From positions 186,001 through 250,000 of the forward strand of contig NZ_FMWX01000005.1 of assembly GCF_900103265.1 (NCBI RefSeq): a DNA stretch of 64,000 nucleotides, read 5' to 3'. The stretch is from Sphingomonas sp. NFR15. Lineage in GTDB: Bacteria; Pseudomonadota; Alphaproteobacteria; Sphingomonadales; Sphingomonadaceae. Shown piece by piece: positions 5,197-37,051 of this stretch (position 1 is the stretch's first letter; every line of letters begins with the position of its first letter). The position numbers were made by a program, and so were the translations under genes. The notes under the pieces were generated by a model. The model did not search any database. It was not told where the DNA came from and saw nothing but the letters and a program-made list of their open reading frames with translations.

Positions 5197-5952
5197 ATGT
5201 CCGCCGCCACGGACGCAGTGATCTTGCCCGCGCCGCCGCCGACTCTGCTCGAGTCCGCCAGCCTGTTCCTCGATTTCGACGGCACTCTGGTCGATCTTGC
5301 CGATCGCCCCGACGGCGTTTCGGTCGATGCCGGCCTCACCGATCTGCTCGCCGGCCTCGCCCGGCGGCTCGACGGCCGCGTCGCGATCGTCAGCGGGCGC
5401 TCGCTCGCGCAGCTCGACGCGCTGCTCGGCCCGGTCGCGCGGACGCTGGCGCTGTCGGGCAGCCACGGCTGCGAGCATCGCTGGCACGGCGCCACCGCGC
5501 GGCCCGAGCGGCCCGACAGCCTCGACCATGTCGCCGAGGCGATGCACGCCGCCGCCGCCGGACAGGACGGCGTGATCGTCGAGGAGAAGAGCTTCGGCGT
5601 CGCGCTCCATTACCGGCTCGCGCCGGGTTTCGGGGCGGAAGCGCTTTCGCTCGCCGAGCGGCTCGCGGCGCACCATGATCTCGCGATCCAGCACGGCAAG
5701 ATGATGATCGAGCTGCGCGTGCCCGGCAGCGACAAGGGCGTCGCGGTCGCGCGGCTGATGGAACGGCCCGACATGGCCGGAACCCGGCCGATCTTCATCG
5801 GCGACGATCTCACCGACGAACCCGCGTTCGTCGCCGCGCGCGATTCGGGCGGGCACGCCATTCTCGTCGGCGAACCCCGCGCGAGCGCGGCCGATTATGG
5901 CTTGCCCGATCCCGCCGCCGTGCGGGCGTGGCTTTTGGAGGAACATGCATGA
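5197..5952 (+). CDS. otsB: Trehalose-6-phosphate phosphatase OtsB
   Basis: HAD-superfamily phosphatase that converts trehalose-6-phosphate to trehalose in the cytoplasm. Visible motifs: [17 protein letters not shown] (HAD motif I, nucleophile Asp), [10 protein letters not shown] (motif II) and [13 protein letters not shown] (motif IV). 251 residues, the usual length. The ATG at 5197 has an AAGGAG 7 bases upstream; a GTG 24 bases earlier in frame lacks a ribosome site. Its stop overlaps the next gene in an ATGA. First gene of otsB-GH15-otsA. Confidence 0.95.
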
Positions 5953-7745
5953 CCGCGACGCTCGATCTCTGGCCGATCGGCAATTGCCAGGTGTCCGCGC
6001 TGGTCGATCGCGCCGGGCGTTTCTCCTGGGGCTGCGTCCCGCGGGTCGACGGCGATCCGGTGTTCTGCTCGCTGCTCGATGACGCGCCGAGGGGCGGGGA
6101 GGGCGCGCGCGGCTTCTGGGAAATCGATCTCGAAAACGGCACCAAGACGACGCAGCGCTACATGCGCAACACGCCGATCCTCGTCACCCGGCACGAGGAT
6201 GACGCGGGCAACGCGATCGAGGTCACGGATTTCTGCCCTCGCTATGTGCGAGAAGGACGCACCTATCGCCCGGTCGCGTTCGTTCGCATCGTCCGCCCCG
6301 TGGCGGGCAGCCCGCGGATGCGCACGCGCCTGCGCCCGGCGCGTGACTGGGGCAGCGCCGACACCGAGCGCACGCAAGGCTCCAACCACATCCGCTATCT
6401 CAACAATGCGATGACGCTGCGGCTGAGCACCAACGCGCCGGTCGGCTGGATTCAGGAAGAGCGGCTGTTCCGCATCGAACGCCCGCTCTATTTCTTCCTC
6501 GGCCCCGACGAGAGTTTCAGCGGTGAGCTCTCCGCAACGATCGAGATGATGCTGGACCGCACCGCCGCCGAATGGCGGCATTGGGTGCGTGGTCTCGCCA
6601 CGCCGCTCGAATGGCAGGAAGCGGTGATCCGCTCGGCGATCACGCTCAAGCTATGTCAGCACGAGGAAACCGGCGCGATCGTCGCCGCGCTCACCACCTC
6701 GATCCCCGAACATGCCAATAGCGAGCGCAACTGGGATTATCGCTACTGCTGGATCCGCGACGCCTATTACACGGTGCAGGCGCTCAACAGGCTCGGCGCG
6801 CTCGACGTGCTGGAGGGGTATCTCGAATATCTCCGCAACATCGTCGACAGCGCGCGCGGCGGCCACATCCAGCCGCTCTACGGGGTCGGCGGCGAGGCGA
6901 CGCTTGAGGAGCGCGTCGCGCCCGGCCTCAATGGCTATCGCGGCATGGGGCCGGTGCGGGTCGGCAACCAGGCCTATGAGCAGGTCCAGCACGATGCCTA
7001 TGGCCAGATCATCCTGTGCAACGCGCAGGCGTTCTTCGACCAGCGGTTGTTCCGGGTCGCCACGGTCGAGGATTTCCGCGCGCTGGAGATGGTCGGCGAA
7101 CGCGCCTGGGAAGCCTATGACAAGCCCGATGCGGGGCTTTGGGAACTGCGCACGCGCAGCCACGTCCACACCTATTCGGCGGCGATGTGCTGGGCGGCGT
7201 GCGACCGGCTCGCCAACGCCGCCTGGGCGCTCGGCCTCGAGGAGCGCCGCGCCTTCTGGTGCGACCGTGCCAACATCATGCGCGACACGATCGAGAAAGC
7301 GGCGTGGCGCGAGAACACCCGGCGCCTCTCCGCCACGTTTGGCGGCGACGATCTCGACGCGAGCCTGATCCAGCTTCTCGACCTGCGCTTCCTGGCACCC
7401 GACGATCCGCGGTTCCGCAGCACGCTTGAAGCGGTCGAGGTCGGGCTGCGGCGCGGCTCGAACATGCTGCGCTATGACACCGAGGATGATTTCGGCCTGC
7501 CCGAGACCGCGTTCAACGTCTGCACCTTCTGGCTGATCGAGGCGCTCCACGCGACTGGCCGCGATGCCGATGCGCGCGCGCTGTTCGAAGAGATGGTGTC
7601 GCGCTGCACCGCCGCCGGTCTGCTGTCCGAGGATATCGATCCGGTCAGCGGCGAATTGTGGGGCAATTATCCGCAGACCTATTCGCTGGTCGGCCTCATC
7701 AATTGCGCCGGCTTGCTCAGTAAACCCTGGAGTTCCGTACGATGA
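5949..7745 (+). CDS. Glycoside hydrolase family 15 protein (trehalase/glucoamylase-like)
   Basis: An (alpha/alpha)6-barrel GH15 enzyme of 598 residues. Typical family segments are the N-terminal LDLWPIGNCQVSALVD, the substrate-pocket stretch NWDYRYCWIRDAYYTVQAL and the C-terminal SEDIDPVSGELWGNYPQTYS, which carries a conserved acidic residue. GH15 enzymes of this type include actinobacterial trehalases and glucoamylase-like enzymes. The sequence alone cannot decide the substrate, but the gene sits between otsB and otsA with four-base overlaps on both sides, which favours trehalose or a related glucan. No signal peptide, so probably cytoplasmic. Confidence 0.9.
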   Translation: MTATLDLWPIGNCQVSALVDRAGRFSWGCVPRVDGDPVFCSLLDDAPRGGEGARGFWEIDLENGTKTTQRYMRNTPILVTRHEDDAGNAIEVTDFCPRYVREGRTYRPVAFVRIVRPVAGSPRMRTRLRPARDWGSADTERTQGSNHIRYLNNAMTLRLSTNAPVGWIQEERLFRIERPLYFFLGPDESFSGELSATIEMMLDRTAAEWRHWVRGLATPLEWQEAVIRSAITLKLCQHEETGAIVAALTTSIPEHANSERNWDYRYCWIRDAYYTVQALNRLGALDVLEGYLEYLRNIVDSARGGHIQPLYGVGGEATLEERVAPGLNGYRGMGPVRVGNQAYEQVQHDAYGQIILCNAQAFFDQRLFRVATVEDFRALEMVGERAWEAYDKPDAGLWELRTRSHVHTYSAAMCWAACDRLANAAWALGLEERRAFWCDRANIMRDTIEKAAWRENTRRLSATFGGDDLDASLIQLLDLRFLAPDDPRFRSTLEAVEVGLRRGSNMLRYDTEDDFGLPETAFNVCTFWLIEALHATGRDADARALFEEMVSRCTAAGLLSEDIDPVSGELWGNYPQTYSLVGLINCAGLLSKPWSSVR

Positions 7746-9127
7746 GCAGGCTCGTCATCATTTCCAACCGCGTCTCCGCGCCCAGCGGCGGCGGCGCGCA
7801 GGGCGGCCTCGCGGTCGCGCTGTCGGCTGCACTGCGCGAAAGCAACGGCATCTGGTTCGGCTGGTCGGGCGAGGAGATCGAGACCTTCACCGGCAACATC
7901 AACTTCCAGCGCAACCAGGGTGTTGCCACCGCGACGATCGACCTGGAGGCGCAGGATATCGACGAATATTACAACGGCTTCGCCAACCGCACGCTGTGGC
8001 CGCTGTTCCACTACCGGATCGATCTCGCCGAATATGAGCGCGGCTTCGCCGGCGGGTATGAGCGCGTCAACGCGCGCTTCGCCGAGACGGTGGTGCCGCT
8101 GATCGAGGAGGAGGATCTCGTCTGGGTCAACGATTACCACCTCATCCCGCTCGGGCGCGAACTGCGCAAGCGCGGCTGCGAGAACAGGATTGGCTTCTTC
8201 CTCCACATCCCCTGGCCGCCGACGCGGCTGCTGATGTCGCTGCCGAGCCACCGCGAACTGGTCGAATCCCTTTTCGCCTATGACGTGATCGGCTTCCAGA
8301 CCGAGGACTCGCTCGATGCGTTCCGGGATTATGCGCGCTCGCAGTTCGAGGCCGAGATCGATGATGCCGGCGTGATGACCTATGAGGGGCACAGCGTCCG
8401 CCTGATCGCCGATCCGATCGGCATCGACACCGCCGATTTCCGCGCGAGCGCCACCAGCGAGACCGCCCGCGAGCGGTTCGCCCGGATGCGCGAGAGCGCG
8501 GACGGCCGCACGATGATGATCGGGGTTGATCGGCTCGATTATTCGAAGGGCCTGCAGGAGCGCTTCCTGGGCTATGAGCGCTTCTTGTCGGCCAACCCGG
8601 ACCAGCAGGGCGAGGTGTTTCTGCTGCAGATCGCGCCGCCCTCGCGCGGGGAGGTGCAGAGCTACCAGGAAATCCGCGCGACGCTCGATTCGCTGTCGGG
8701 GCGGATCAACGGCGAGTTCTCCAACGTGGAATGGGTGCCGATCCGCTACGTGAACAAAGGCTATCCACGCGAGCAGCTCGCCGGCATGTACCGGGCCGCG
8801 CGGGTGGCGCTGGTCACGCCGCTGCGCGATGGCATGAACCTCGTCGCCAAGGAATATGTCGCCGCGCAGGACCAGGCCGATCCCGGCGTGTTGATCCTGT
8901 CGCGCTTCGCCGGCGCGGCCGAGCAACTGACCGATGCTTTGCTCGTCAACCCCCACAGCCCCGAGGAAGTCTCCGATGCGATCGCCACCGCGCTGGCGAT
9001 GCCGCTGGAGGAACGGGTGAAGCGCTGGCGCGCGATGATGGACACGATCGAACAGCAGGACGTGTTCTGGTGGCGCCGCCGCTTCACCGACATGCTCGAG
9101 GCGACGCCGCACGAGGCGACGGCCTAA
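7742..9127 (+). CDS. otsA: Trehalose-6-phosphate synthase OtsA
   Basis: GT20 glycosyltransferase that makes trehalose-6-phosphate from a nucleotide-activated glucose and glucose-6-phosphate. 461 residues with the family signatures GGLAVALSAALRESNGIWFGW, VWVNDYHLIPLGRELR, IGFFLHIPWPP, GVDRLDYSKGLQERF and RDGMNLVAKEYVAAQ. Starts in an ATGA overlap with the GH15 gene and is the last gene of the operon. OtsA and OtsB together make trehalose, an osmoprotectant and desiccation protectant. Confidence 0.96.
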   Translation: MSRLVIISNRVSAPSGGGAQGGLAVALSAALRESNGIWFGWSGEEIETFTGNINFQRNQGVATATIDLEAQDIDEYYNGFANRTLWPLFHYRIDLAEYERGFAGGYERVNARFAETVVPLIEEEDLVWVNDYHLIPLGRELRKRGCENRIGFFLHIPWPPTRLLMSLPSHRELVESLFAYDVIGFQTEDSLDAFRDYARSQFEAEIDDAGVMTYEGHSVRLIADPIGIDTADFRASATSETARERFARMRESADGRTMMIGVDRLDYSKGLQERFLGYERFLSANPDQQGEVFLLQIAPPSRGEVQSYQEIRATLDSLSGRINGEFSNVEWVPIRYVNKGYPREQLAGMYRAARVALVTPLRDGMNLVAKEYVAAQDQADPGVLILSRFAGAAEQLTDALLVNPHSPEEVSDAIATALAMPLEERVKRWRAMMDTIEQQDVFWWRRRFTDMLEATPHEATA

Positions 9128-9212
9128 CTGCCGGGTCTGCCCCGAAACGGGACGGGCGTTAACCTTACAAATGTGATGGCTGAGATCGTAAGCCGCGCGT
9201 TAACCTCGTGCC

Positions 9213-9380
9213 ATGAGGAGTCGTCACCGCAGCGTCGCCAGGGTGCCGCGTCACCCGTTCCGCCAATCGGTCGCGCGGGCGCACGCGTCCCGCGCCGATC
9301 GCGGCGAGGACGATGACATCAAGCTCTTCGTGCTGAGCTTCACCGCCTTCTTCATCTGCTTCTACACGCTGATTTTCTGA
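9213..9380 (+). CDS. Small single-pass membrane protein, function unknown
   Basis: A 55-codon reading frame starting MRSRHRSVARVP, with an Arg/His-rich N-terminus, an acidic patch RGEDDDIK and a hydrophobic C-terminal segment KLFVLSFTAFFICFYTLIF that would form one membrane helix. It lies between otsA and the convergent LplT-like gene. I do not recognise a family. The charge/hydrophobicity pattern is typical of real tail-anchored small proteins, and the frame uses GC-rich third positions. No strong Shine-Dalgarno is visible. Two TTAACC hexamers lie just upstream (9159-9164 and 9200-9205). Confidence 0.5.
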   Translation: MRSRHRSVARVPRHPFRQSVARAHASRADRGEDDDIKLFVLSFTAFFICFYTLIF

Positions 9381-9415
9381 AGCGCCGCTGTTGAGGCGGG
9401 CTTGTCAGAACCCCG

Positions 9416-10705
9416 TCAATCGCAGGCCAGATGCAGCTTCTGCGCGAGCCAGGCCGACACCGGCGACATCGCGGCCACCACGAACAGCATGTCCTCTGGC
9501 GTCACGCCGGCCGACGCCAGCCCCTGCACCATCACCGCGCCGACCACCATCGCGCCCGAATTGACGACGTTGTTCGCCGCCACGGTCCGCGCGGTCTGGT
9601 CCTTGGTCACGGTCGTCGTCAGGAACGCGTAGAGCGGCACCACGAACATCCCGCCGGTCACCGCCACCGCCATCAGCACGACGACGATCAGCACGCCGTG
9701 GGGGATTTCGAGGAACGTCGTCAGATCATACAGCGTGCCCGCCGGCGCATGCGGGAAGGTGCGCGTCAGCAGCGAAAAGACGACGATGCACGCGCCCATC
9801 GCGAGCACGCAGAACGGGCCGAACTTGGCGCTGGTATGCCCGCGCAGCAGCGCGTTGATCGCCACCGAACCGATCGCCACGCCGACCGAGAACAGCGCGA
9901 TCACGAAGGTCGAGACCTGCTTGTCGGCGGTCAGCACGTTCTTCACCAGCGGCGGAAAGATGATGATGAGCACCGCGCCCATCGTCCAGAAGAAGCTGAT
10001 CGCGCAGATCGCGAGGAACAGCCGCGGGATGTGCATCGTCGCGTTGATGAGCCGCCACGACGAGGTGAACGGGTTGAAGTTGACCGTCAGCTTCGGCCCC
10101 ATGCGCGGCGCGGGCGGCACCAGCAGCGCCATCAGCCAGCCGATCGCGGCCACCACCAACACCGTGATCGCGGTGCCGCGCACCGACAGCAGCCCGGCCG
10201 CGACCGTGCCCATCAGGATCGCGAGATAGGTCGCCGCCTCGACGAGTCCGGTGCCGCCGAGCACCTCGTCATCCTCGAGATGCTGCGGCAGGATCGCATA
10301 TTTGATCGGCCCGAAGAATGCCGAATGCACGCCCAGGCACAGCACCGCCGACAGCATCATGACCAGCCCGAGCGTGGTCAGCCCCGAACTCGCCACCAAG
10401 AGGCCGCCCGCGCCGAGCAGCATGATGCCGACCTCCGCGGTCTTGACGATGCGGATGATGCTCGCCTTGTCGTGCGTATCCGCCAATTGCCCCGACAGCG
10501 CCGACAGCAGAAAGAACGGGATGATGCCGATCGCGGTGGCGAGCGCGTTGAAATTCTGCTCGCCCGATGGATTGTGGAAAATCTGATAGGTGGCGAACAG
10601 CACCATCGCCGTCTTGAACAGATTGTCGTTGAATGCTCCCAGAAACTGCGTCGTGAAAAGCGGCAGGAACCGGCGCTCTTTCAGCAAGCCGAGCGCGTTG
10701 AGCAT
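9416..10705 (-). CDS. MFS transporter, LplT-like (lysophospholipid transporter family)
   Basis: A 429-residue major facilitator with about 12 hydrophobic segments. The N-terminal FTTQFLGAFNDNLFKTAMV, with the F-N-D-N motif, and SAFFGPIKYAILPQHL are characteristic of the LplT group. In enterobacteria LplT flips lysophospholipids inward for reacylation by Aas; in many other bacteria the transporter is fused to acyltransferase and AMP-ligase domains. Here it stands alone with no acyltransferase beside it. The start is the ATG at 10705, just before the first membrane helix; the longer frame upstream runs into the intergenic region towards pgsA. Substrate is inferred from the family. Confidence 0.82.
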   Translation of the reverse strand: MLNALGLLKERRFLPLFTTQFLGAFNDNLFKTAMVLFATYQIFHNPSGEQNFNALATAIGIIPFFLLSALSGQLADTHDKASIIRIVKTAEVGIMLLGAGGLLVASSGLTTLGLVMMLSAVLCLGVHSAFFGPIKYAILPQHLEDDEVLGGTGLVEAATYLAILMGTVAAGLLSVRGTAITVLVVAAIGWLMALLVPPAPRMGPKLTVNFNPFTSSWRLINATMHIPRLFLAICAISFFWTMGAVLIIIFPPLVKNVLTADKQVSTFVIALFSVGVAIGSVAINALLRGHTSAKFGPFCVLAMGACIVVFSLLTRTFPHAPAGTLYDLTTFLEIPHGVLIVVVLMAVAVTGGMFVVPLYAFLTTTVTKDQTARTVAANNVVNSGAMVVGAVMVQGLASAGVTPEDMLFVVAAMSPVSAWLAQKLHLACD

Positions 10706-26138: not shown

Positions 26139-27296
26139 TCAGAGCGCCTTTTCGTACACCTGATACACTTTGTTGATGTCGCAATTGATCGTCTCGGCAA
26201 TCGAGCGCATCCCCTGATTGTCGTCGAGGATCCAGCCGATCTCGCCGCGCGTCGCGCCATAGTTCGCGACCGATGTGCGGCGGATATATTCGATCATCAT
26301 GAACGCCAACTGGCTCGCCATGCGCGATGCCTGCAATTCCTTCACCACGCCCATCAGCGGCACGCGCATCGTCTTCACCTTGGGCTTGCGCAGCCACCAC
26401 AGCAGTTTGAGCACGTTGAACGGGAACAGATTGCCCTTGAAGGGCATGATCGCCTCGTTGAGATCTGGGAGCGTGATCATGAACGCGACCGGCCGGCCGT
26501 CGAGCTCGGCGATGCGGATCAGGTCGTTGAACACGATCGGCTTGAGCTTGACGCCGACGTCCTTGATCTCGGGCGGGGTGAGCGGAACGAAGCCCCAATT
26601 GTCCGACCATGCATCGTTGAGGATGGCGAGGATGATCGCCGCTTCCTCGTCGAACTTCTTCTTGTTCACCTCGCGTATGACGATGCGCGGATTTTTCTCG
26701 CCCGATGCGATGATGCGCTGGACGATCGGGGGAAATTGCTTGGTGATGTCCAGTTCGTAGGTCAGCAATTGCTTGACCGGACGGTAGTCCGCGCCCTCGA
26801 TCCAGCCGCGATATTCGGGCTTCGCATGGCCCATCATGATGGTCGGCGGATGGTCATAGCCCTCGATCAGCAATCCGGGTTCTTCCCAGATCGACATGCT
26901 GATCGGCCCGAGCACGCGGTTCATGCCCTGGCCGCGCAGCCACGCCTCGGCGGTCTTGATGAGCGCGGCGGCGATCACGCCGTCCTCGGCGTCGAGCAGG
27001 CCGAACTGTCCGCAGCCGGGGCCGAACCCCTGATCGCTCGGCATCTCCAGCGCGAGCGTGTCGATATGCGCCGAAACCCGCCCCACCACCGCGCCGTTCC
27101 GCTCGGCGAGGAACAGTTGCGCCTTGGCGTGGCTGAACCAGCCATTCTTCTCGGGGGTGACCAGCCCGAGCGCTTCACCTTTCAGCGGCGGCACCCAGTT
27201 CGGATCGTTGGCATAGAGCCGGAACGGCAGTTCGATGAACTTCTTGCGATCGGCCTTGCTCTCGATTGGCCGGATCGTGAAATCTTTAGTTGCCAC
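26139..27296 (-). CDS. GNAT-fold protein of unknown function
   Basis: 385 residues. FTIRPIESKADRKKFIELPF and LYANDPNWVPPLKGEA open the protein. A possible acetyl-CoA core around RNGAVVGRVSAHIDTLALE and QFGLLDAEDGVIAAALIKTA, and a second around GRPVAFMITLPDLNEA, suggest two GNAT-like halves. Proteins of this type are usually annotated as hypothetical or as N-acetyltransferases. GTG 27296 is taken as start (VATKDF, GAGAGG 10 bases upstream); the open frame before it has no support. Divergent from the desaturase. Confidence 0.75.
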   Translation of the reverse strand: MATKDFTIRPIESKADRKKFIELPFRLYANDPNWVPPLKGEALGLVTPEKNGWFSHAKAQLFLAERNGAVVGRVSAHIDTLALEMPSDQGFGPGCGQFGLLDAEDGVIAAALIKTAEAWLRGQGMNRVLGPISMSIWEEPGLLIEGYDHPPTIMMGHAKPEYRGWIEGADYRPVKQLLTYELDITKQFPPIVQRIIASGEKNPRIVIREVNKKKFDEEAAIILAILNDAWSDNWGFVPLTPPEIKDVGVKLKPIVFNDLIRIAELDGRPVAFMITLPDLNEAIMPFKGNLFPFNVLKLLWWLRKPKVKTMRVPLMGVVKELQASRMASQLAFMMIEYIRRTSVANYGATRGEIGWILDDNQGMRSIAETINCDINKVYQVYEKAL

Positions 27297-27480: not shown

Positions 27481-28587
27481 ATGGAAAGCCCCATGACGAG
27501 CATGACCTTCGCCCGGCGCAGCACCGCCGACGACGCTGGCGTCCCTGCGCGCGCGCCGATCGACCGGAAGGCCGATGACAAGGCGATGTTGCGCGCCGCC
27601 GCCGAACTGACGCGGGATCTGCATACACCCAATCCGACGATCTACTGGGTGGATTTCCTCGCCTCGGCGGTGACGGGCTATGCCGCACTCGCGGTGGCGA
27701 TGCTGTGGGTGTCGCCCTGGGCGATCCTCGCCGGGGCCGTCGCCGCGCTCGCGCTCTATCGCGCCGGCAGCTTCATCCACGAGATCACCCATATGAAGCC
27801 GAGCGCGGTGCCCGGCTTCCGCCTGGGCTGGAACCTGCTGTTTGGCATTCCGATGATGGTGCCGTCCTTCATGTACGAAGGCGTGCACACCATCCACCAC
27901 ACCCGCACGCGCTATGGTACGGTCGAGGATCCCGAATATCTGCCGCTCGCGCTGATGAAGCCGTGGACCCTGCCGCTGTTCGTGCTGACCGCGCTGCTCG
28001 CCCCGATCGCTCTCGTCGTGCGCTATGCTGTGCTGGTGCCGCTCTCGCTGGTGATCCCGCAGGTGCGGACCTGGCTGGTCGAGCAGGCGTCGTCGCTGGC
28101 AATCAACCCCGCCTTCCGCCGCCGTCCCCCCGAGGGCGAGCTGCGCACCCGCTGGCTGTGGCTGGAGGGCGCGACCAGCGTCTGGGCGATCGCTTTGGTT
28201 GCTCTGGTGGCGAGCGGCGTGATTCCGCTGCGCGCCGCCGCGATCTTCCTCGGCATCTACGCCGTCTCGACGCTGCTCAACCAGATCCGCACCTTGGTCG
28301 CGCATTTGTGGGAGAATGAAGGCGAGCCGATGAGCGTCACCGCGCAATATCTCGACAGCGTCAACGTGCCGCCGCCAAGCTATCTGCCGTTCCTCTGGGC
28401 ACCGGTGGGCCTGCGCTACCACGCGCTCCACCACCTCGTGCCGAGCGTGCCGTATCACGCGCTGGGCGAGGCGCATCGCCGGCTCGTCGCGACGCTGGAC
28501 ACCGCCTCGCCCTATCACGACGGCAACCATCCCGGCCTCGCGCCGCTGGTCGCGCGGCTGGTGCGTAGCACGACCAGGCTTCGCTAG
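27481..28587 (+). CDS. Fatty acid desaturase family membrane protein
   Basis: 368 residues with several membrane segments and three histidine clusters of the di-iron desaturase fold: SFIHEITHMKPS, EGVHTIHHTRTRYG and YHALHHLVPSVPYHALGEAH. These bind two irons for O2-dependent C-H chemistry on lipids. Acyl chain, sphingoid base or carotenoid could be the substrate; the sequence does not decide. Start ATG 27481 has no obvious Shine-Dalgarno; MTSMTF twelve bases later is another option. Confidence 0.85.
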   Translation: MESPMTSMTFARRSTADDAGVPARAPIDRKADDKAMLRAAAELTRDLHTPNPTIYWVDFLASAVTGYAALAVAMLWVSPWAILAGAVAALALYRAGSFIHEITHMKPSAVPGFRLGWNLLFGIPMMVPSFMYEGVHTIHHTRTRYGTVEDPEYLPLALMKPWTLPLFVLTALLAPIALVVRYAVLVPLSLVIPQVRTWLVEQASSLAINPAFRRRPPEGELRTRWLWLEGATSVWAIALVALVASGVIPLRAAAIFLGIYAVSTLLNQIRTLVAHLWENEGEPMSVTAQYLDSVNVPPPSYLPFLWAPVGLRYHALHHLVPSVPYHALGEAHRRLVATLDTASPYHDGNHPGLAPLVARLVRSTTRLR

Positions 28588-28625: not shown

Positions 28626-28925
28626 TCAGATGGCTTTGCCCGCGCCCACGTCGTAAAGTGTCAGCGCGCGGCCGCCGATCCCGAGCGTAGTGCCCGCCGC
28701 GCGCCATGCCGCGATGTGCGGTGTTCCGAAATGCGCGTCGAGCGCCGCGCGATCACGCCAGCGTTCGGTGATGTGGATCAGGCCGGGATCGAGCACGTCC
28801 TCGGCGAAGCGATATTCGAGGCAACCGTCCTCGGCGCGGGTGGCCGTGACCACAGCGGCGATCGCGTCGCGCGCGGCGGCGACGTTTTCGGCGGGCAGGC
28901 GGATCGTGCCGGCGATCAGTAGCAT
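28626..28925 (-). CDS. Antibiotic-biosynthesis-monooxygenase (ABM) domain protein
   Basis: 99 residues forming one dimeric alpha/beta-barrel module: MLLIAGTIRLPAENVAAARD, GCLEYRFAEDVLDPGLIHIT and ERWRDRAALDAHFGTPHIAA. Such small proteins act as cofactor-free monooxygenases, heme-binding enzymes or quinone-related enzymes. It starts 5 bases after the lptG stop with GAGGAG overlapping the lptG end, so it is the last gene of the lptF-lptG transcript. Confidence 0.88.
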   Translation of the reverse strand: MLLIAGTIRLPAENVAAARDAIAAVVTATRAEDGCLEYRFAEDVLDPGLIHITERWRDRAALDAHFGTPHIAAWRAAGTTLGIGGRALTLYDVGAGKAI

Positions 28926-28930
28926 GCGCG

Positions 28931-30022
28931 TCACTCCTCGGTGCGGATCAGCACGGTCTCGCCAATCATCAGGAACAGCAGGAACGCGCCCCACGCGGCG
29001 AGGAATGGCGGGTAGGCGCCGAGATTGCCCATCGCCAGCGCGAAATTGTCGGCGACGAAATACAGGAAGCCGAGTCCCATGCCGATCACCGCGCGGATGA
29101 ACAGCTTGCCCGATCGCGCGATGCCGAACGCGGCGACCGCGCCGAGCAGCGGCATCAGCATCGCGGACAGCGGCCCCGACAGCTTGTGCCAGAGCGTGCC
29201 TTCCAGCGAAGCGGTCGGCCGTCCGGCGGCGGCGAGGTCGGCGATCGCGGAGCGAAGATCGCTAAATGACAGCCCGTCCGCATCGACGCTCGACAGCGAG
29301 AATTGATCGGGGCGCACGCCGCGGCCGATCACGATCGAGCCGGCCTGTGTGACCTTGTCGGCGGCGAGATCGAACCGCGTCGCCGGCCAGATCCGCCAGC
29401 CGTCCCCCTCGCGCTTGCCATGCGGCGCCTTGGTGATCGTGCTGAGCGAGCCGCCCTCGCGATCGAACAGGGTCACGCCGCCCAGGATCGCCGCGTCGCC
29501 GCGCCCCTTGATCTGATCGACCTGGATGAGATCGTCGCCGTCACGCACCCATACGTCCGACCGGTCGCCCCGGTCGATCGGCAGCGGACCGTAATTGACC
29601 TTCTGCCACTGATCGAGCGTCGCGGTGGCGCGCGCGACAATGCGATCGTTGAAGCTGAACGACAGCAGCGCGACGCCGAAGCTCGCCACGATCAGCGGCG
29701 CGAGGATCTGGTGCGCCGACAAGCCCGACGCCTTGAGCGCGATGACCTCGCTGTTCTGGTTGAGCGTCGTCAGCGTGATGATCGCGCCGAGCAGCACCGA
29801 ATAGGGCAGGAAGGTCGAGATGATCTGCGGCACGCGCAGGCCGACATAATGCCAGATCTGCGCGTCGCCATTGCCGGCATAGGCAAGAATCTTGCCCGAT
29901 TCGGTGAGCAGGTCGAGCGATTGCAGCACCAGCACCAGCACGCCGAGGATGGCGAAGGTCCGGATCAGGAACATCCTCGCCATGTAGAACGCGACGGTGC
30001 GCGACGGGAACATCGCCGTCAT
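28931..30022 (-). CDS. lptG: Lipid (LPS) export ABC permease LptG
   Basis: 363 residues, YjgP/YjgQ family: three membrane helices at each end around a periplasmic beta-jellyroll. Visible: YMARMFLIRTFAILGVLVLV, the Q/N-rich coupling segment TLTTLNQNSEVIALKASGLS, and the C-terminal GTLWHKLSGPLSAMLMPLLG. Partner of LptF in the LptB2FG transporter that extracts lipid from the inner membrane. ATG overlaps the lptF stop (ATGA). Confidence 0.93.
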   Translation of the reverse strand: MTAMFPSRTVAFYMARMFLIRTFAILGVLVLVLQSLDLLTESGKILAYAGNGDAQIWHYVGLRVPQIISTFLPYSVLLGAIITLTTLNQNSEVIALKASGLSAHQILAPLIVASFGVALLSFSFNDRIVARATATLDQWQKVNYGPLPIDRGDRSDVWVRDGDDLIQVDQIKGRGDAAILGGVTLFDREGGSLSTITKAPHGKREGDGWRIWPATRFDLAADKVTQAGSIVIGRGVRPDQFSLSSVDADGLSFSDLRSAIADLAAAGRPTASLEGTLWHKLSGPLSAMLMPLLGAVAAFGIARSGKLFIRAVIGMGLGFLYFVADNFALAMGNLGAYPPFLAAWGAFLLFLMIGETVLIRTEE

Positions 30023-31215
30023 GCCCGCGCCTCCCGGCCGCGGCGCGGCAACAGCCGGCCGATCGCCTTGGCCGCCTTGGATGCGGCGCGTTCCAGCGCG
30101 CCGATCGGCTGCCCGCCGGGGACGAACGCGATCGTGTAGAACATCCACAGCACTAGGCTGGCGAACACGGCGAAGGGCACCCACAAGGCGATGATCGGGT
30201 CGATCCTGCCGAGACCGCCGACCGCCATGCCGTATTCATTCACCTTATGATACGCCACGATCATGATGATGCCGAGGAACACGCCGATCGCCGAGGACGA
30301 TCGCTTCGGCGGCACGCCGAGCGCGAGGCCGAGCATCGGCAACAGGAACATCGTACAGACCTCGACGATGCGGAAGTGGAATGCGGCGCGGCTCGTGTCG
30401 CGGGTTTCCTTGTCGGCATGGCGGTCGTGGCCAAGCCGCGCGAGCGTCGGCAACGTCATCTCCAGGTTGCTGCTGCCCTGGGTGCGGAAGCTCTCGTATT
30501 TGGGCAGCGCGATCGGCAGGTCGTGCGAGGTGAAGGTCAGCACGCGCGGCGTCGCGAAATTGGGCGCCTTGTTGACGAGCGTGCCCTTGGTCAGCCGGAA
30601 GATGATCTCGTCCGGGTTGTCGGTGGCGAGGAACTGCCCGCTCTGCGCGGTCACGGCGTACCAGTCGCCCTTCTTGTCGGCGTATTGCACGAAGATGCCC
30701 GAGAGCTTGCGGCCGTTGTCGCGGCTGTGCTCGATCCGCACCGTGCCGCCGTTGGGGAAGTGGGTGAACTCGCCGACCTTGATCGAGGCGCCGAGCGCGC
30801 CGGTGCGCAGCTCGAAGCGCAGCTTCTCATAGGAATAGCGCGCATCCGGCTGGATGAAGCCCACGATCGCGAGATTCACCGCCGCCAGCGCCGCCGCGTA
30901 CAGGAAGGGCACGTAGAGCAGACGCGGATAGCTCATGCCGACCGCGCGCATCACGTCGAGCTCGGACGACGTGGCGAGCCGCCGGAAGGCGAGCAGCACG
31001 CCGAGCAGCAGCCCGATCGGAATGCCGAGCCCGAGATATTCGGGCAGCAGGTTGGCGAGCATCCGCCACACCACGCTGATCGGCCCGCCCTCGGTCGCGA
31101 CGAAATCGAACAGGCGCAGCATCCGGTCGAGCACCAGCAGCATCGCCGAGATGACCAGGGTCGAGAACAGCGGCACCGCGATCAGCCGGGCCATGTAACG
31201 GTCGATGGACTTCAT
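30019..31215 (-). CDS. lptF: Lipid (LPS) export ABC permease LptF
   Basis: 398 residues of the same family: MKSIDRYMARLIAVPLFSTL, then LLAFRRLATSSELDVMRAVG (coupling helix), a jellyroll domain and the C-terminal EVCTMFLLPMLGLALGVPPK. Start is ATG 31215; the frame upstream belongs to the gap before the histidine kinase. In Sphingomonas, where glycosphingolipids replace LPS, the cargo may differ from that of E. coli. Confidence 0.93.
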   Translation of the reverse strand: MKSIDRYMARLIAVPLFSTLVISAMLLVLDRMLRLFDFVATEGGPISVVWRMLANLLPEYLGLGIPIGLLLGVLLAFRRLATSSELDVMRAVGMSYPRLLYVPFLYAAALAAVNLAIVGFIQPDARYSYEKLRFELRTGALGASIKVGEFTHFPNGGTVRIEHSRDNGRKLSGIFVQYADKKGDWYAVTAQSGQFLATDNPDEIIFRLTKGTLVNKAPNFATPRVLTFTSHDLPIALPKYESFRTQGSSNLEMTLPTLARLGHDRHADKETRDTSRAAFHFRIVEVCTMFLLPMLGLALGVPPKRSSSAIGVFLGIIMIVAYHKVNEYGMAVGGLGRIDPIIALWVPFAVFASLVLWMFYTIAFVPGGQPIGALERAASKAAKAIGRLLPRRGREARA

Positions 31216-31312
31216 GGGCGGGCTTTGGCGGCCTTCTGCTTGGGGCGGTCTGGGGAGTGGGAGACCGAAGCGCGGGCTATATCGGCCTATACCGCCCGCG
31301 TCAGCTACGAAA

Positions 31313-33274
31313 TCATTCCGCGGCGATGTGGTCCTCGATGCCGCCCGGCGTAGCGGCCGCATCGTGAATCGCGGCTTCCAGCCCGGCGATGGTGAACGGC
31401 TTGCGCAGCACGACATGGCCGCCGAACTCGGCCTCGGCGGCGTCGCCGGCAAAGCCCGTGACGAACAGCACGGCAAGATCGGGCCGGCGCAGCAACAGCG
31501 TGGCGACCATCTCCGGCCCGGTCTGGCCCGGCATCAGCACGTCGGAAATCACCATGCTCACGCCAGGGTTGGCGGCGAGCAATGCCGGCGCGGCGAGGGG
31601 GTCGCCGCAGGCTATCGCGCGGTGGCCGAGTTCCTCCAGCGCGACCATCGTCGCGGCGAGCACGCGCGGATCGTCCTCGACGACCAGGATGTCGCGCGCG
31701 GCGGGCGTCATGCCGACAGGGAGCGCGGGGGCGGGCGGGGCGGGTGCGGCCGCGTCGGCATGACGCGGCAGGTACAGCGTCACCGTGGTTCCTTCGCCCG
31801 GTGCCGAGCGCAAAACGACCTCGCCCTCCGCTTGGCGAACGAAGCTGAACACCTGGCTCAAGCCGAGGCCGGTGCCCTTGCCGACCGGCTTGGTGGTGAA
31901 GAACGGCTCGAACACGCGCTCCATCACCTCGGGCGTCATGCCGCTGCCGGTATCGGAGACAGCGATGCTGACATATTCGCCCGCCGGACACGCGCCCACC
32001 GCGCCCTGCGACAGCGCGGTGCCCGCCGTGGTGATCGTGAGCTGGCCGCGCCCGTCCATCGCGTCTCGCGCGTTGACGGCGAGATTGAGGATGACGTTTT
32101 CGAGCTGGTGCTTGTCGATCCGCGTATGCCAGCCGCTGCCCGCATCGCGCACCGTCACCGTGATGGTGTCGCCCAGCGTGCGGTCGAGCAGGTCCGACAT
32201 GCCCGCGACCAGCGCGCCCGGCTCGATCGGCTCGGTGTTCAGCGCGTCTTCGCGCGAGAAGGCGAGCAGCCGCCGGGTCAGTTCGGCGGCGCGTTTCGCG
32301 CCCTCGGTCGCGCTGTCGATATGGCGGTTGGCGGCGGCCGGATCGAGCGCGATCTGCCGTCGCGCCAGTTCGAGCCCGCCGAGCACCACTGCGAGCATAT
32401 TGTTGAAATCGTGCGCGATGCCGCCGGTGAGCTGGCCGATCGCCTCCATTTTCTGAATCTGGCGGAGTTGCGCTTCCTGCGCGCGGAGTTCGGCGGCCGC
32501 GGCGGCGACGGCGGCGCTCAGGTCTTCGGCGCGCGCGCGTTCGGCGGCGGTCTCGGCATGCGCGATCGCTTCGGAACGCAGCGCCTGCACCATCATCCAG
32601 CCGAGCAGGATCGCGCCGATGACGATCAACACACCGAACACCGCCAGCACTTTCGCGACATCGTTCGAATGCGCGACCGCCGCGATCGCGCCGGCGGTGC
32701 GCCGGTCGAGCAGCGCATGTTCCCGCGCCGAAATCTCGTTCAGCAGCGCGTTGATCCGGGCGAGGCGGGGCGAGGTGCCGGCACGGTAATATAGATCGAG
32801 CGCCTGCGTGTTCTTCTTGTAGCGTGTGCTCAGCGCGATCAGTTCGAGTTCGGCGCCGCGCGCATCATATGCCTGGGCGAGGTCGGCGATCGCGCGCGCC
32901 TGTTCGGGGTTGTCGGCGGTGTCGCGCCGAAGCTTGTCGATCTGCGAACCGGCGATCTGCCATCGCTCCGCATAGCGCGCGCCGAGCACGCGGTCGCCGC
33001 TTATGACGTAGCGGCCGAGCGCCGCCTCCGCGTCGGCGATCGTGCCCGCGAGCGTCCGCGTGAGGATCATCACCTCATAGCTATGCCGCTCGCGCTGCTG
33101 CGCTTCGTCGCGCTGGCGGTTGGCGCCCGACAGCGTGAGAATCAGTGCGATGAGCACGGACACGCCCAACAGCGCCATCATGCCCAGCATGATGGTCCGC
33201 CATACCGCGCCGAAGGTGTGCTCCGCCCCCCGTTCCGCCGCCGCGTCGCCCTCGGTCCCGCTCATGGCGGTCAT
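31313..33274 (-). CDS. Hybrid sensor histidine kinase (CHASE3-like, HisKA, HATPase, receiver)
   Basis: 653 residues. TM1 about 27-49, extracytoplasmic helical CHASE3-like region 50-205, TM2 about 206-230, coiled coil, HisKA with phospho-acceptor His288 (GGIAHDFNNMLAVV), HATPase with NLAVNARDAMDG, VSDTGSGM and GKGTGLGLSQV, and a receiver domain from about 528 (ILVVEDDPRVL, acceptor Asp578 in ISDVLMPGQTG). The signal is unknown. The gene lies 41 bases behind the serine palmitoyltransferase gene and just before lptF, all on one strand, so it may be co-transcribed with the envelope-lipid genes. Confidence 0.93.
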   Translation of the reverse strand: MTAMSGTEGDAAAERGAEHTFGAVWRTIMLGMMALLGVSVLIALILTLSGANRQRDEAQQRERHSYEVMILTRTLAGTIADAEAALGRYVISGDRVLGARYAERWQIAGSQIDKLRRDTADNPEQARAIADLAQAYDARGAELELIALSTRYKKNTQALDLYYRAGTSPRLARINALLNEISAREHALLDRRTAGAIAAVAHSNDVAKVLAVFGVLIVIGAILLGWMMVQALRSEAIAHAETAAERARAEDLSAAVAAAAAELRAQEAQLRQIQKMEAIGQLTGGIAHDFNNMLAVVLGGLELARRQIALDPAAANRHIDSATEGAKRAAELTRRLLAFSREDALNTEPIEPGALVAGMSDLLDRTLGDTITVTVRDAGSGWHTRIDKHQLENVILNLAVNARDAMDGRGQLTITTAGTALSQGAVGACPAGEYVSIAVSDTGSGMTPEVMERVFEPFFTTKPVGKGTGLGLSQVFSFVRQAEGEVVLRSAPGEGTTVTLYLPRHADAAAPAPPAPALPVGMTPAARDILVVEDDPRVLAATMVALEELGHRAIACGDPLAAPALLAANPGVSMVISDVLMPGQTGPEMVATLLLRRPDLAVLFVTGFAGDAAEAEFGGHVVLRKPFTIAGLEAAIHDAAATPGGIEDHIAAE

Positions 33275-33315
33275 GTTACTATGGCGCGGAAATCGAGGAA
33301 AGGCGCGACGTTCCG

Positions 33316-34587
33316 TTAATCGATCGCGCCCACCGCTTGACCCGACGCCTTGAACATGGCGAGGATCGTCTCGACCTGCTCGGCGCTATGCTCCGCACAC
33401 AGCGAGCAGCGCAGCAGATACGTACCGGCCGGCGTTGCGGGCGGCCGCGCCATGTTGACGTACAGGCCACCCTCGAGCAGCGACTGCCATAGGGCGACCG
33501 CCTGGGTCTGATCCTTGAGGATCACCGCGATGATCGCCGATTGCGGCGTCTCGGTGCCGAGCGTGTAGCCCATGTCCTTGAGCCCGCCGTGGAGCCGCTT
33601 CGAATTCGCCCACAGATGCGCGCGCTTCTCGCCGGCGTGCATCAGCTTGCGGATCGAGGTCGCCGCGGTCGCCACCACCGAGGGCGGAAGCGAGGCGGTG
33701 AAGACATAGGGGCGGCACACCAGCCGCATCACATCGAACTTGGGATGGTTCGACACGCAGAACCCGCCGACCGTGCCGACCGACTTGGAGAAGGTGCCGA
33801 CGACGAAATCCACCTGATCCTCGACGCCCTGTTCCTCGTACACGCCGCGCCCGTTGGGGCCGAAGAAGCCCATGCCGTGCGCCTCGTCGACCAGCACCAT
33901 CGCGCCGTGCTTCTTGGCGACCGCGACCATTTCGGGCAGCGGCGCGATATCGCCAAGCATCGAATAGACGCCTTCGAGAACGACGAGCTTGCCCGGCTCC
34001 TTGGGCAGCCGGCCGAGCCTTTTGTCGAGATCCTCGACCGAATTGTGACGGAAGCGGACGATCTCGGCATTGCCGAGCGCGCAGCCATCGTAGATCGAGG
34101 CGTGGCTGTCTGCGTCGAGGATGACATATTCGCCCTTGCCGGCGAGCGTCGAGATCATGCCGAGATTGGCCTGATATCCGGTCGAGAACACCATCGCGTG
34201 GGATGTGCCGTAAAACTCCTTGAGCGCCTCCTCGCAATCCTTGTGCGGCGAATAGGTGCCGTTGAGCACGCGGCTGCCTGTGGTGCCCGATCCGAACGCG
34301 TCGAGCGCGTCCTTGCCGGCACGCACGACGTCCGGATCGAACGTCATGCCCATGTAATTGTAGGTTCCGAGCAGGATCGTCTCCTTGCCCTTGATGACCG
34401 CGAGCGTGGGCGATTTCACCTCGTCCATCACGATCGCGAACGGATCGCGCACGCCAGTCGCCATCAGCGCCTCGCGTTCGGCGATCAGCGCGTCGAACTT
34501 GGTGAACAGGTCGCGTTCCGGCGCAACCTCGGCGGGCGAGGCGGGCAGGGCGTCGGCGGTGGCAGCGGCTTCGGTCATGTCATTCAT
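33316..34587 (-). CDS. spt: Serine palmitoyltransferase (sphingolipid synthesis)
   Basis: PLP-dependent alpha-oxoamine synthase that condenses L-serine with an acyl thioester to 3-ketosphinganine, the first step of sphingolipid synthesis. 423 residues. The residues known from the S. paucimobilis enzyme (His159, Asp231, His234, Lys265) are all present with an offset of +3: His162 ([11 protein letters not shown]), Asp234 and His237 ([13 protein letters not shown]), Lys268 ([12 protein letters not shown]). Soluble; no membrane helix. Preceded on the same strand by an acyl carrier protein and a reductase. This gene is the strongest taxonomic marker of the window. Confidence 0.96.
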
Positions 34588-34594
34588 TCCTAGA

Positions 34595-34630
34595 CCGTTC
34601 GCGTCCCTCGACTTCGCTCGGGACGAACGG
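34595..34630. repeat. Palindromic repeat (family A, short form)
   Basis: CCGTTCGCGTCCCTCGACTT...CTCGGGACGAACGG, sitting in the 52-base gap between acp and spt. Arms match the outer part of family A. Confidence 0.75.
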
Positions 34631-34639
34631 AGGTTGGGA

Positions 34640-34882
34640 TCAGGCCTTGAGGCTCATCACGGCATCGACGAGCTGGCCGATCGTTTCGATCTCGGCCTGC
34701 ATGTTCATGGTGATGATGATGTCGAACTCGTCCTCGATCGCGGCGACGAAATCCATCACCGTCAAGCTGTCCCACTCGAGATCGCCTTGGAAGGTGGTCG
34801 CCTCGGTCAGCGCGACCTGCTTCTTGTTGAACGGTTCGATCTGGCGGGTAACGGTTTCGAAAACGGTGGCGCGGTCGCTCAT
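34640..34882 (-). CDS. Acyl carrier protein of the sphingolipid cluster
   Basis: 80 residues. The phosphopantetheine site is Ser39 in GDLEWDSLTVMDFVAAIE, and the domain ends MQAEIETIGQLVDAV. It lies directly upstream of serine palmitoyltransferase. In Caulobacter and relatives a dedicated ACP next to spt is needed for ceramide synthesis, so this ACP probably supplies the acyl thioester. Start ATG 34882. Confidence 0.9.
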   Translation of the reverse strand: MSDRATVFETVTRQIEPFNKKQVALTEATTFQGDLEWDSLTVMDFVAAIEDEFDIIITMNMQAEIETIGQLVDAVMSLKA

Positions 34883-34947
34883 GGAAATCCTTCGGGAGTG
34901 GGGCCGCACGATCGTTGCCAAGCAAATGCGGCGGCATTCGGACGATT

Positions 34948-35853
34948 CTATAGCAGGCTGTGGTCGCGATACCATGCCGCCGTCGCGGCGAGACCTTCCT
35001 CGGTCGGAATTTGTGCGCGCCACAGCGCGGGATCGGGCGCGCGGGCCGGATCGATCGTCCAGTCGGAATGGCAGAAATAGCCGACCCGGTCGCGGGTGAG
35101 CTTGGCCTTGTCGCCACGCATCAGCCGGTCGATGCGCGCGGCGGCGAGCATCACCGGCTTGGGCAGGTCGATCGCCAGAACGCGACGGCCGACCGCCGCG
35201 CCGATCGCGCGCGCGAACGCGCGGTGCGTCCAGCCGCCGGGGCGGCCGTCATCGGCTTCGTAGAGGACCGGGCCTGGGTTAGTCGCGACCACCGCGAGCA
35301 GCAGCCGGGCGAGATCGTCGACATGGATCACCGCGAGCTTGCCGGGCGGCGGCAGCAGCGCGAGCCCGTGCTTGGCCGCGCGGAACATATCGAGCCAGTC
35401 GGTGTCGCCGGGGCCGAACACGCCGGAGGGGCGCACCATCGTCCAGTCGAGACCGGAGGCGGCGACCACCTCCTCCGCGCCGTGCTTCGACCAGCCGTAG
35501 GTGGAAAGCGCCGGCTCGCGCGCGGCGAGCGAGGAGACGTGGACGAAGCGGCGCACGCCGGCTGCGCGCGCGGCATCCACCACCGCCTGCGTGCCGGTGA
35601 TGTTGCCTGCGATAAATCCCGCCCGCGTCGGCGTGTTGACGACCCCGGCTACGTGGATGACGACATCCGCGCCGGCGACTATCTCGGCGAGCGCCGGCGC
35701 ATCGTCGAGCGCGCCGGCGATCCAGGTCACGCCGTCGCGCGGCGGCTGCGTGCGGCGGGTGAGCGCGCGGACCTGATAGCCGGCGGCGAGCGCCTGTGCG
35801 ATCAGCCGCTTGCCGACGAAGCCGGTGCCGCCGGTGATGGCGAGCGTGGTCAT
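34948..35853 (-). CDS. NAD-dependent epimerase/reductase, probable ceramide reductase (CerR-like)
   Basis: 301-residue extended short-chain dehydrogenase: Rossmann motif LAITGGTGFVGKRLIAQALA, VIHVAGVVNTPTRAGF, the catalytic Tyr-Lys in ALSTYGWSKHGAEEVV and VRPSGVFGPGDTDWLDMF. In Caulobacter an epimerase-like protein next to spt and acp (CerR) reduces oxidised ceramide; the identical neighbourhood here supports the same role. The direct evidence is only SDR family plus context. Follows proB on the same strand. Confidence 0.82.
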   Translation of the reverse strand: MTTLAITGGTGFVGKRLIAQALAAGYQVRALTRRTQPPRDGVTWIAGALDDAPALAEIVAGADVVIHVAGVVNTPTRAGFIAGNITGTQAVVDAARAAGVRRFVHVSSLAAREPALSTYGWSKHGAEEVVAASGLDWTMVRPSGVFGPGDTDWLDMFRAAKHGLALLPPPGKLAVIHVDDLARLLLAVVATNPGPVLYEADDGRPGGWTHRAFARAIGAAVGRRVLAIDLPKPVMLAAARIDRLMRGDKAKLTRDRVGYFCHSDWTIDPARAPDPALWRAQIPTEEGLAATAAWYRDHSLL

Positions 35854-35900
35854 TGCGAGGGGTTCCTGGGGAACGCTGCGGTCGCGTCTCGCGCGGTGCC

Positions 35901-35921
35901 GCTCCCTTCCAGGGAGGGGAG
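35901..35921. repeat. Palindromic repeat (family C, short form)
   Basis: GCTCCCTTCCAGGGAGGGGA, a hairpin in the gap between proB and the reductase gene; same ends as at 16639 and 20731. Confidence 0.6.
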
Positions 35922-35944
35922 CAGGTTGCGTGCGTGGCGGACGC

Positions 35945-37051
35945 TCACAACAGCGCCATGTGGTTGCGATGGACCAGCGCGGCGCGGGGCGCGTAGCCGA
36001 GGATGTCGGCAAGTTCGCCGCTGCGCTTGCCGGTGATCCGTTCCGCCTCGTCGGCATCATATTCGGCGAGTCCGCGCGCCAGCGTGCGGCCGTCGTCCGC
36101 GCAGATCGTGACGAGGTCGCCGCGCCGGAAACCGCCCTCGACGCGGGTCGCCCCCGCTGCGAGCAGGCTCGCGCCGCTGCGCAGCGCGGTGGCGGCGCCG
36201 GCATCGACGTGGATCGTGCCGCGCGCGGTCAGCCCGCCCGCCAGCCATGCCTTGCGCGCGGGCGCGGATTTCTCGGCGACGAACAGCGTGTGGCGCGCCG
36301 CCGTCGAGAGCGGCTGCTCGATCCGGCCGCTCGCGATCGCGAGGTTCGCGCCCGCCGCATTGGCGATGCGCGCGGCGGCGATCTTCGAGACCATCCCGCC
36401 CGACCCCATGCCCGAGGCGGAGCCGCGATCCGCCATCGCCTCGATGCGCGCGTCGATCCGCTCGACGCGCGCGATGTGCGCCGCGCCGGGCAGGGCGGGG
36501 TTGCGATCGTACAGTCCGTCGATGTCGGAGAGCAGCACGACGCCCTGCGCGCCCGCCGCCTGCGCGACGCGCGCGGCGAGGCGGTCGTTGTCACCGAAGC
36601 GGATTTCCGCCGTCGCGACGCTGTCATTCTCGTTGAGCACCGGCACCACGCCGAGGCCGAGCAGCCGGTCGAGCGTGGCGGCGGCGTTGAGATAGCGGCG
36701 ACGGTCCTCGAGATCGTCGAGCGTGACGAGGATCTGCGCTGCGGTCAGCCCCTCCGCGCCGAGCGTTTCCGCCCACATTTGGCTGAGCGCGATCTGCCCG
36801 GTCGCAGCGGCGGCCTGCGCATCCTCGAGGTTGGCGCGCCCGCCCTTGGGCAACCCGAGCCGCCGCGCGCCGAGCGCGATCGCGCCCGACGACACCACCG
36901 CGACCTGTTGCCCGGCGCGGGCACGTTCGGCGATGTCGGCGACGATCCCGGCGAGCCACGCACGCCGCACGCCGCCGTCGGGATCGACGAGCAGCGCCGA
37001 GCCGATCTTGACGATCAGGCGCGGGCAGGTGGCGGGCGGAAACAGATGCAT
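35945..37051 (-). CDS. proB: Glutamate 5-kinase ProB
   Basis: First enzyme of proline synthesis. 368 residues: amino-acid kinase domain (RLIVKIGSALLVDPDGGVRR, VAVVSSGAIALGARRLGL, VPVLNENDSVATAEIRFGDN, VLLSDIDGLYDRNP, GMGSGGMVSKIAAARIA) and a C-terminal PUA domain from about residue 275. Belongs to the conserved rplU-rpmA-obgE-proB gene string. Confidence 0.96.
   Translation of the reverse strand: MHLFPPATCPRLIVKIGSALLVDPDGGVRRAWLAGIVADIAERARAGQQVAVVSSGAIALGARRLGLPKGGRANLEDAQAAAATGQIALSQMWAETLGAEGLTAAQILVTLDDLEDRRRYLNAAATLDRLLGLGVVPVLNENDSVATAEIRFGDNDRLAARVAQAAGAQGVVLLSDIDGLYDRNPALPGAAHIARVERIDARIEAMADRGSASGMGSGGMVSKIAAARIANAAGANLAIASGRIEQPLSTAARHTLFVAEKSAPARKAWLAGGLTARGTIHVDAGAATALRSGASLLAAGATRVEGGFRRGDLVTICADDGRTLARGLAEYDADEAERITGKRSGELADILGYAPRAALVHRNHMALL

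Follow-up and report, generated by a model that had tools for sequence, protein, structure and literature searches.

How do bacterial sphingolipids reach the cell surface? The question is raised by a stretch of DNA from Sphingomonas sp. NFR15 (assembly GCF_900103265.1, contig NZ_FMWX01000005.1, positions 186,001-250,000). These 64,000 nucleotides are here called the window, and coordinates are window positions. Within it, a group of genes for ceramide formation, among them spt for serine palmitoyltransferase (SPT), lies upstream of lptF and lptG, whose products belong to the permease family of the Escherichia coli lipopolysaccharide (LPS) exporter. The original prediction supposed that LptFG here may move glycosphingolipids in a bacterium that had kept its Lpt permeases. 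We found that the window pair is a second, sphingolipid-linked LptFG type. It is probably a sphingolipid-dedicated permease (LptF2G2) that would feed the ordinary, shared Lpt bridge. The two genes are as follows:

30019..31215, minus strand: lptF, sphingolipid-type (LptF2-like); PF03739/TIGR04407, typed by tree and approximately unbiased (AU) test
28931..30022, minus strand: lptG, sphingolipid-type (LptG2-like); TIGR04408, typed by tree, AU test and a motif of the first transmembrane segment (TM1)

Both proteins gave full-length matches above the curated cut-offs of their families (LptF, TIGR04407 score 238 against 230; LptG, TIGR04408 score 285 against 240).

Two types of LptFG permease

A tree of 75 concatenated LptF+LptG pairs was divided by one long, well-supported branch (length 1.16; Shimodaira-Hasegawa-like approximate likelihood ratio, SH-aLRT, 100). 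On one side, the LPS group, fell eight of eight spt-distant pairs of dual genomes (genomes with both SPT and the LPS enzyme LpxC) and nearly all pairs of genomes that make LPS only. On the other side fell all 25 pairs labelled as coming from genomes with SPT and no LpxC, the window pair included, and seven of seven spt-near pairs of dual genomes. The window pair grouped with pairs of dual genomes that are linked to spt or to a ceramide synthase (CerS) candidate gene, in a tree where the Caulobacter sequence was not placed by name. The split was kept after removal of ten long-branch rows and addition of E. coli, which fell on the LPS side (SH-aLRT 99). A tree constrained to hold the sphingomonad pairs within the LPS group was rejected by the AU test (log-likelihood lower by 51.5, p = 6.7e-9).

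The chromosomal place of the missing LPS-type pair was also recognized. LPS-making relatives have the order pepA (divergent)-lptF-lptG-lptD-surA-pdxA-rsmA, and pepA likewise lies beside lptFG in E. coli. In the host genome pepA directly adjoins lptD, followed by surA, pdxA and rsmA, with no lptFG between them (locus L192, limits of the open frames):

5854-7419, minus strand: pepA
7435-9720, plus strand: lptD

The same pepA-lptD gap was present in five other LPS-less genomes (G086, G251, G084, G127 and G157). Most simply, the LPS-type pair would have been excised from this operon and lptD left in place. The host genome (4.40 Mb, 21 contigs, 100% complete) yielded no LpxC, LpxB or WaaA in searches in which the E. 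coli and Caulobacter control genomes scored, and LpxC was found in none of 35 tested genomes of the order. Judged by these three enzymes, the host does not have the lipid A pathway; a complete LPS pathway was part of what would have spoken against the original prediction. The host has exactly one lptFG pair, that of the window, one LptD, and an lptC-lptA-lptB cluster next to rpoN. The idea that sphingomonads keep the Lpt permeases therefore needs correction in detail, since the LPS-type pair was lost, and what was kept is the other pair together with the bridge genes.

Linkage separated the two types as well: among 38 non-LPS pairs, 24 had a CerS candidate in the fetched flank, versus none of 21 LPS-type pairs. 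Loci centred on spt favour adjacency to spt from the outset. This bias does not touch loci that were fetched around lptFG alone, and in eight of these (L154, L158, L163 and L172-L176) a CerS candidate lies beside the non-LPS pair. At the TM1 end of LptG, LPS-type rows carry a basic ELLRR-like motif versus LDLLxxSxDIL in the other type; the window protein reads LDLLTESGKIL. Since K40 and K41 are dispensable in E. coli LptG, where K40E/K41E is tolerated (PMC5548808), this motif was taken as a marker of type and not as proof of cargo. E. coli LptG K34 was also considered as a marker and rejected, because alphaproteobacterial LPS-type LptG likewise has Asp there and the column is ambiguously aligned.

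The coupling glutamates of E. coli LptF and LptG (E84 and E88) engage LptB. They are present in the window pair and do not vary in any of the 48 non-LPS rows or the 17 LPS-type rows compared, so that the window pair is likely driven by LptB.

Some pairs stand apart in the tree. In one LPS genome with no spt at the threshold used, an additional, highly divergent LptF/G-like pair (L185, G074:C2:495000-507000) was placed apart from the LPS group, with a very long branch. A second lptFG pair of the non-LPS type occurs in some members of the order that lack LPS (G048, loci L186 and L190; G054, L187); this second pair groups with the spt-linked pair of the distant LPS genome G151 (L135). This suggests that sphingolipid-type lptFG has moved by horizontal transfer.

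The copy-number rule and its exceptions

A search for SPT covered 290 alphaproteobacterial genomes (E <= 1e-90); the 42 positives and seven negatives were scored for LptF/G and LpxC. At least four LptF/G genes, that is two pairs, were present in 14 of the 15 genomes with both SPT and LpxC. Among the 27 with SPT and no LpxC, four genes were present in one, two in most and none in three. The association of two pairs with LpxC among SPT-positive genomes was strong (Fisher test, 4e-9, not corrected for relatedness). Six of the seven sampled genomes with LpxC and no SPT had two LptF/G genes, and in the 26 genomes checked for LpxB its presence or absence always matched that of LpxC. LptD was single in dual genomes, save for one copy split over two contigs. 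One LptC only was detected in them with PF06835, although the LptC2 of Caulobacter may lie below the reach of this model; for this reason the case for a shared LptC is weaker than that for a shared LptD.

Several observations weigh against a sphingolipid-dedicated permease. Three genomes of one genus (G107, G263 and G322; loci L137, L126 and L131; 5.4-5.8 Mb) have spt, cerR, acp and CerS genes and neither LpxC nor LpxB, and contain no LptFG, LptC or LptD; sphingolipids therefore do not need Lpt everywhere, and this lineage may move them, or build its outer membrane, without it. In G196, of the same family, LptFG, LptC and LptD are still present. Genome G116 has SPT, CerS and LPS, yet only an LPS-type pair, and G310, without LPS, has two pairs of the non-LPS type, of which the second adjoins a further CerS-like gene. 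Some assignments of pairs as near to or far from spt depend on draft contigs. In many Sphingobium and in Sphingomonas loci L050, L053, L063, L081, L083 and L106, lptFG lies elsewhere and acp, spt and the kinase gene described below stay together; the relocated lptFG of L053 is still accompanied by desaturase and CerS candidate genes. Given these exceptions, the copy-number rule is strong and not absolute.

The gene run, the ceramide-making enzymes and the kinase

The run from proB to an ABM-domain gene, which had been expected to lie on one strand, was borne out: every named gene is present on the minus strand, tightly packed within 28626-37051 in the order proB-cerR-acp-spt-hybrid kinase-lptF-lptG-ABM, and the order recurs in relatives. 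The kinase gene and lptF are 97 bp apart, acp and spt 52 bp, and lptF and lptG overlap by 4 bp. This short spacing fits a single transcript, without proving one. Two further companions of lptFG that the original prediction had not named, a desaturase/hydroxylase gene and a tandem-GNAT gene, lie beyond the run. Besides lptF and lptG, the features are:

35945..37051, minus strand: proB (glutamate 5-kinase), first gene of the run; Pfam AA_kinase and PUA; position conserved in sphingomonads
34948..35853, minus strand: CerR-like NAD(P)-dependent reductase, ceramide reductase candidate; Pfam NAD_binding_10/Epimerase
34640..34882, minus strand: dedicated acyl carrier protein (acp, AcpR-like); Pfam PP-binding; adjoins spt in other families
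33316..34587, minus strand: spt, serine palmitoyltransferase; NCBIfam NF047603
31313..33274, minus strand: hybrid histidine kinase with CHASE3, HisKA, HATPase_c and receiver domains (Pfam)
28626..28934, minus strand: ABM-domain protein (Pfam), not conserved in the cluster
27481..28587, plus strand: fatty-acid desaturase/hydroxylase, candidate ceramide hydroxylase; Pfam FA_desaturase; convergent with lptG-ABM
26139..27296, minus strand: tandem-GNAT acyltransferase of 385 residues, CerS candidate by predicted fold and gene position

Conservation was followed across 80 spt loci, almost all of which carry Sphingomonadaceae names. The gene order is not due to chance, as it recurs in most of them, the commonest arrangement being obgE-proB-cerR-acp-spt-kinase-lptF-lptG-(desaturase)-CerS candidate. 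The desaturase gene is recurrent beside lptFG in sphingomonads. proB is probably a mere positional neighbour, and the ABM gene, present only in the two nearest relatives (L031 and L032), is incidental to the cluster; ABM and PDDEXK-like genes occur sporadically across the loci. Outside Sphingomonadaceae, cerR and acp belong to the spt clusters, often together with lptFG and CerS, and in many alphaproteobacterial families spt and lptFG again lie within about 20 kb of each other. In two loci tested, the hybrid kinase gene and lptF are separated by a gene for a lipid kinase of the DAGK family (L038, 14229-15194, minus; L043, 14131-15210, minus), and L041, L052, L061 and L085 are similar; a ceramide or long-chain-base kinase is a possible function. 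One record titled "Bacillus sp. 2B10" (L033, RPSH01000019.1) carries a sphingomonad spt cluster (SPT identity 89%) and is probably a contamination or a mislabelling.

The SPT protein belongs to the bacterial serine palmitoyltransferases (NF047603 equivalog, 804 bits against a cut-off of 670) and matches the solved enzymes 2X8U and 2JG2 over its full length (about 740-756 bits). In other families, the CerR-like gene adjoins acp-spt in the majority of spt loci. NCBIfam offered no named model for the CerR-like, CerS candidate or desaturase proteins. Since the CerS candidate had no match in the PDB by sequence, a fold search was carried out. The AlphaFold2 model (predicted local distance difference score, pLDDT, 93) had tandem GNAT acyltransferases among its nearest PDB structures, so that the protein combines a predicted N-acyltransferase fold with a place after lptG2. 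It was called a CerS candidate because its gene comes after lptF-lptG, the position that cerS takes after lptF2-lptG2 in Caulobacter (PMC11324152); by model and analogy, it is a candidate bacterial ceramide synthase.

The hybrid kinase was originally suggested to sense the state of the envelope. In 71 of 80 sphingomonad loci a homologue is encoded downstream of spt, even where lptFG has moved away, and the phospho-acceptor residues H288 and D578 are near-invariant among them; the protein also has a periplasmic CHASE3-type domain. Conservation beside spt is confined to sphingomonads, since this kinase was not found in spt clusters outside Sphingomonadaceae; it was also not found in Sphingomonas loci L034-L037, L049, L072, L078 and L095. 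A role in envelope sensing is plausible from the conserved place beside spt and the conserved His and Asp residues; in other families the kinase is no part of the cluster. As an additional hypothesis, we tentatively consider that the kinase might sense the state of the sphingolipid outer membrane and tune expression of spt and lptFG.

Alternative explanations, proposed mechanism and known systems

The original prediction implied that the window LptFG is an ancestral LPS permease re-used for glycosphingolipids after loss of LPS. Pfam and NCBIfam do annotate the proteins as LptF and LptG; this reading was nevertheless rejected as scarcely credible on the tree and AU test, the gap between pepA and lptD, and the coexistence of both types in dual genomes. 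A loose housekeeping neighbourhood (obgE-proB and others), in which contact of spt and lptFG would be a lineage accident without functional meaning, could be argued from the lack of a known sphingolipid role for proB, obgE and ABM and from the relocated lptFG of many Sphingobium. It is very improbable, because the spt-lptFG linkage extends over many families and the lptFG-CerS linkage outlasts separation from spt in the eight lptFG-centred loci. Somewhat more room is left for a different cargo, another surface lipid or lipidated polymer (e.g. an anionic glycolipid or a lipid-linked polysaccharide), with lptFG lying near spt as a fellow envelope gene. The three genomes with sphingolipid enzymes and no Lpt would agree with it, as would the PF03739 matches in Thermus and Deinobacterium, two control genomes that yielded no LpxC. 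We consider it unlikely, since LptFG copy number tracks spt and LpxC jointly, the linkage is specific to spt and the CerS candidate for this LptFG type only, and the Caulobacter lptF2 (CC_1156) and lptC2 (CC_1168) mutants show cofitness with a phosphosphingolipid gene (PMC11324152).

The gene content, phylogeny, linkage, copy numbers and deletion scar described above fit best with a dedicated sphingolipid permease, and we infer that the second type extracts a ceramide-based lipid, to be delivered by the shared LptC-LptA-LptD bridge. SPT, the acyl carrier protein, the GNAT-type ceramide synthase and CerR would form (dihydro)ceramide, which, from known sphingomonad biology, would then be glycosylated. 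LptF2G2, driven by LptB, would extract the completed sphingolipid from the inner membrane and load it onto the ordinary bridge, encoded elsewhere in the genome, for transfer to the outer leaflet. Dual Alphaproteobacteria would use one LptFG pair per lipid with a single LptD, and LPS-losing lineages would have lost only the LPS-type pair. A wider generalization, which we moderately favour, is a cargo-swappable Lpt machine with one LptFG pair per class of surface lipid and one shared bridge; loss of LPS would remove the LPS pair alone, and the sphingomonads would be left with the sphingolipid loader.

Sphingolipid transport by LptFG, for which far more than adjacency speaks here (the absence of LpxC, LpxB and WaaA, the sphingolipid-linked grouping and the vacated LPS-type site), is not new as a proposal. 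It was put forward for Caulobacter LptC2/F2/G2, named in 2024, in PMC11324152 without a transport test, and orthologues were listed there in S. wittichii and Zymomonas. Another 2024 article (PMC11087976) stated that no transporter was known, and no later test of LptF2G2 came up in a literature search without most subscription papers and bioRxiv preprints. Relative to the available text of both articles, three findings appear new: the copy-number rule across the class, the separation of two types in the tree, and the scar between pepA and lptD. The window pair suggests how bacterial sphingolipids reach the cell surface: a specific permease pair is named and set apart from the LPS pair across a whole bacterial class, and two different lipids are predicted to share one outer-membrane port, LptD. 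If this is true, LptD would be a possible target in LPS-free bacteria, and cargo specificity would be set by LptFG.

Among known systems, the Lpt-like system of Borrelia burgdorferi also links both membranes in a diderm without LPS (PMC10353723); it belongs to an unrelated lineage, is not known to be tied to sphingolipid genes, and is likened by description and not by sequence. With the E. coli LptB2FGC-A-DE exporter the host shares the LptF/LptG family, the coupling-helix glutamates and the LptC, LptA, LptB and LptD genes; it differs in its LptFG group, in the absence of LpxC, LpxB and WaaA, and in the LDLLxxSxDIL that replaces the ELLRR of alphaproteobacterial LPS-type LptG. The closest parallel is Caulobacter crescentus CC_1168-CC_1152, where cerR-acp-spt and lptF2-lptG2-cerS likewise share one region (PMC11324152). 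The window order cerR-acp-spt equals its cerR-acpR-spt, and lptF-lptG-CerS candidate equals its CC_1156-1155-1154, a likeness of gene order and not of sequence. Unlike the Caulobacter cluster, that of the host has a hybrid kinase gene between spt and lptF, and the only LptC found, in contrast to LptC2, is that of the usual lptC-lptA-lptB cluster. Caulobacter makes LPS as well and possesses a first LptFG set, whereas the host keeps the sphingolipid-type pair only.

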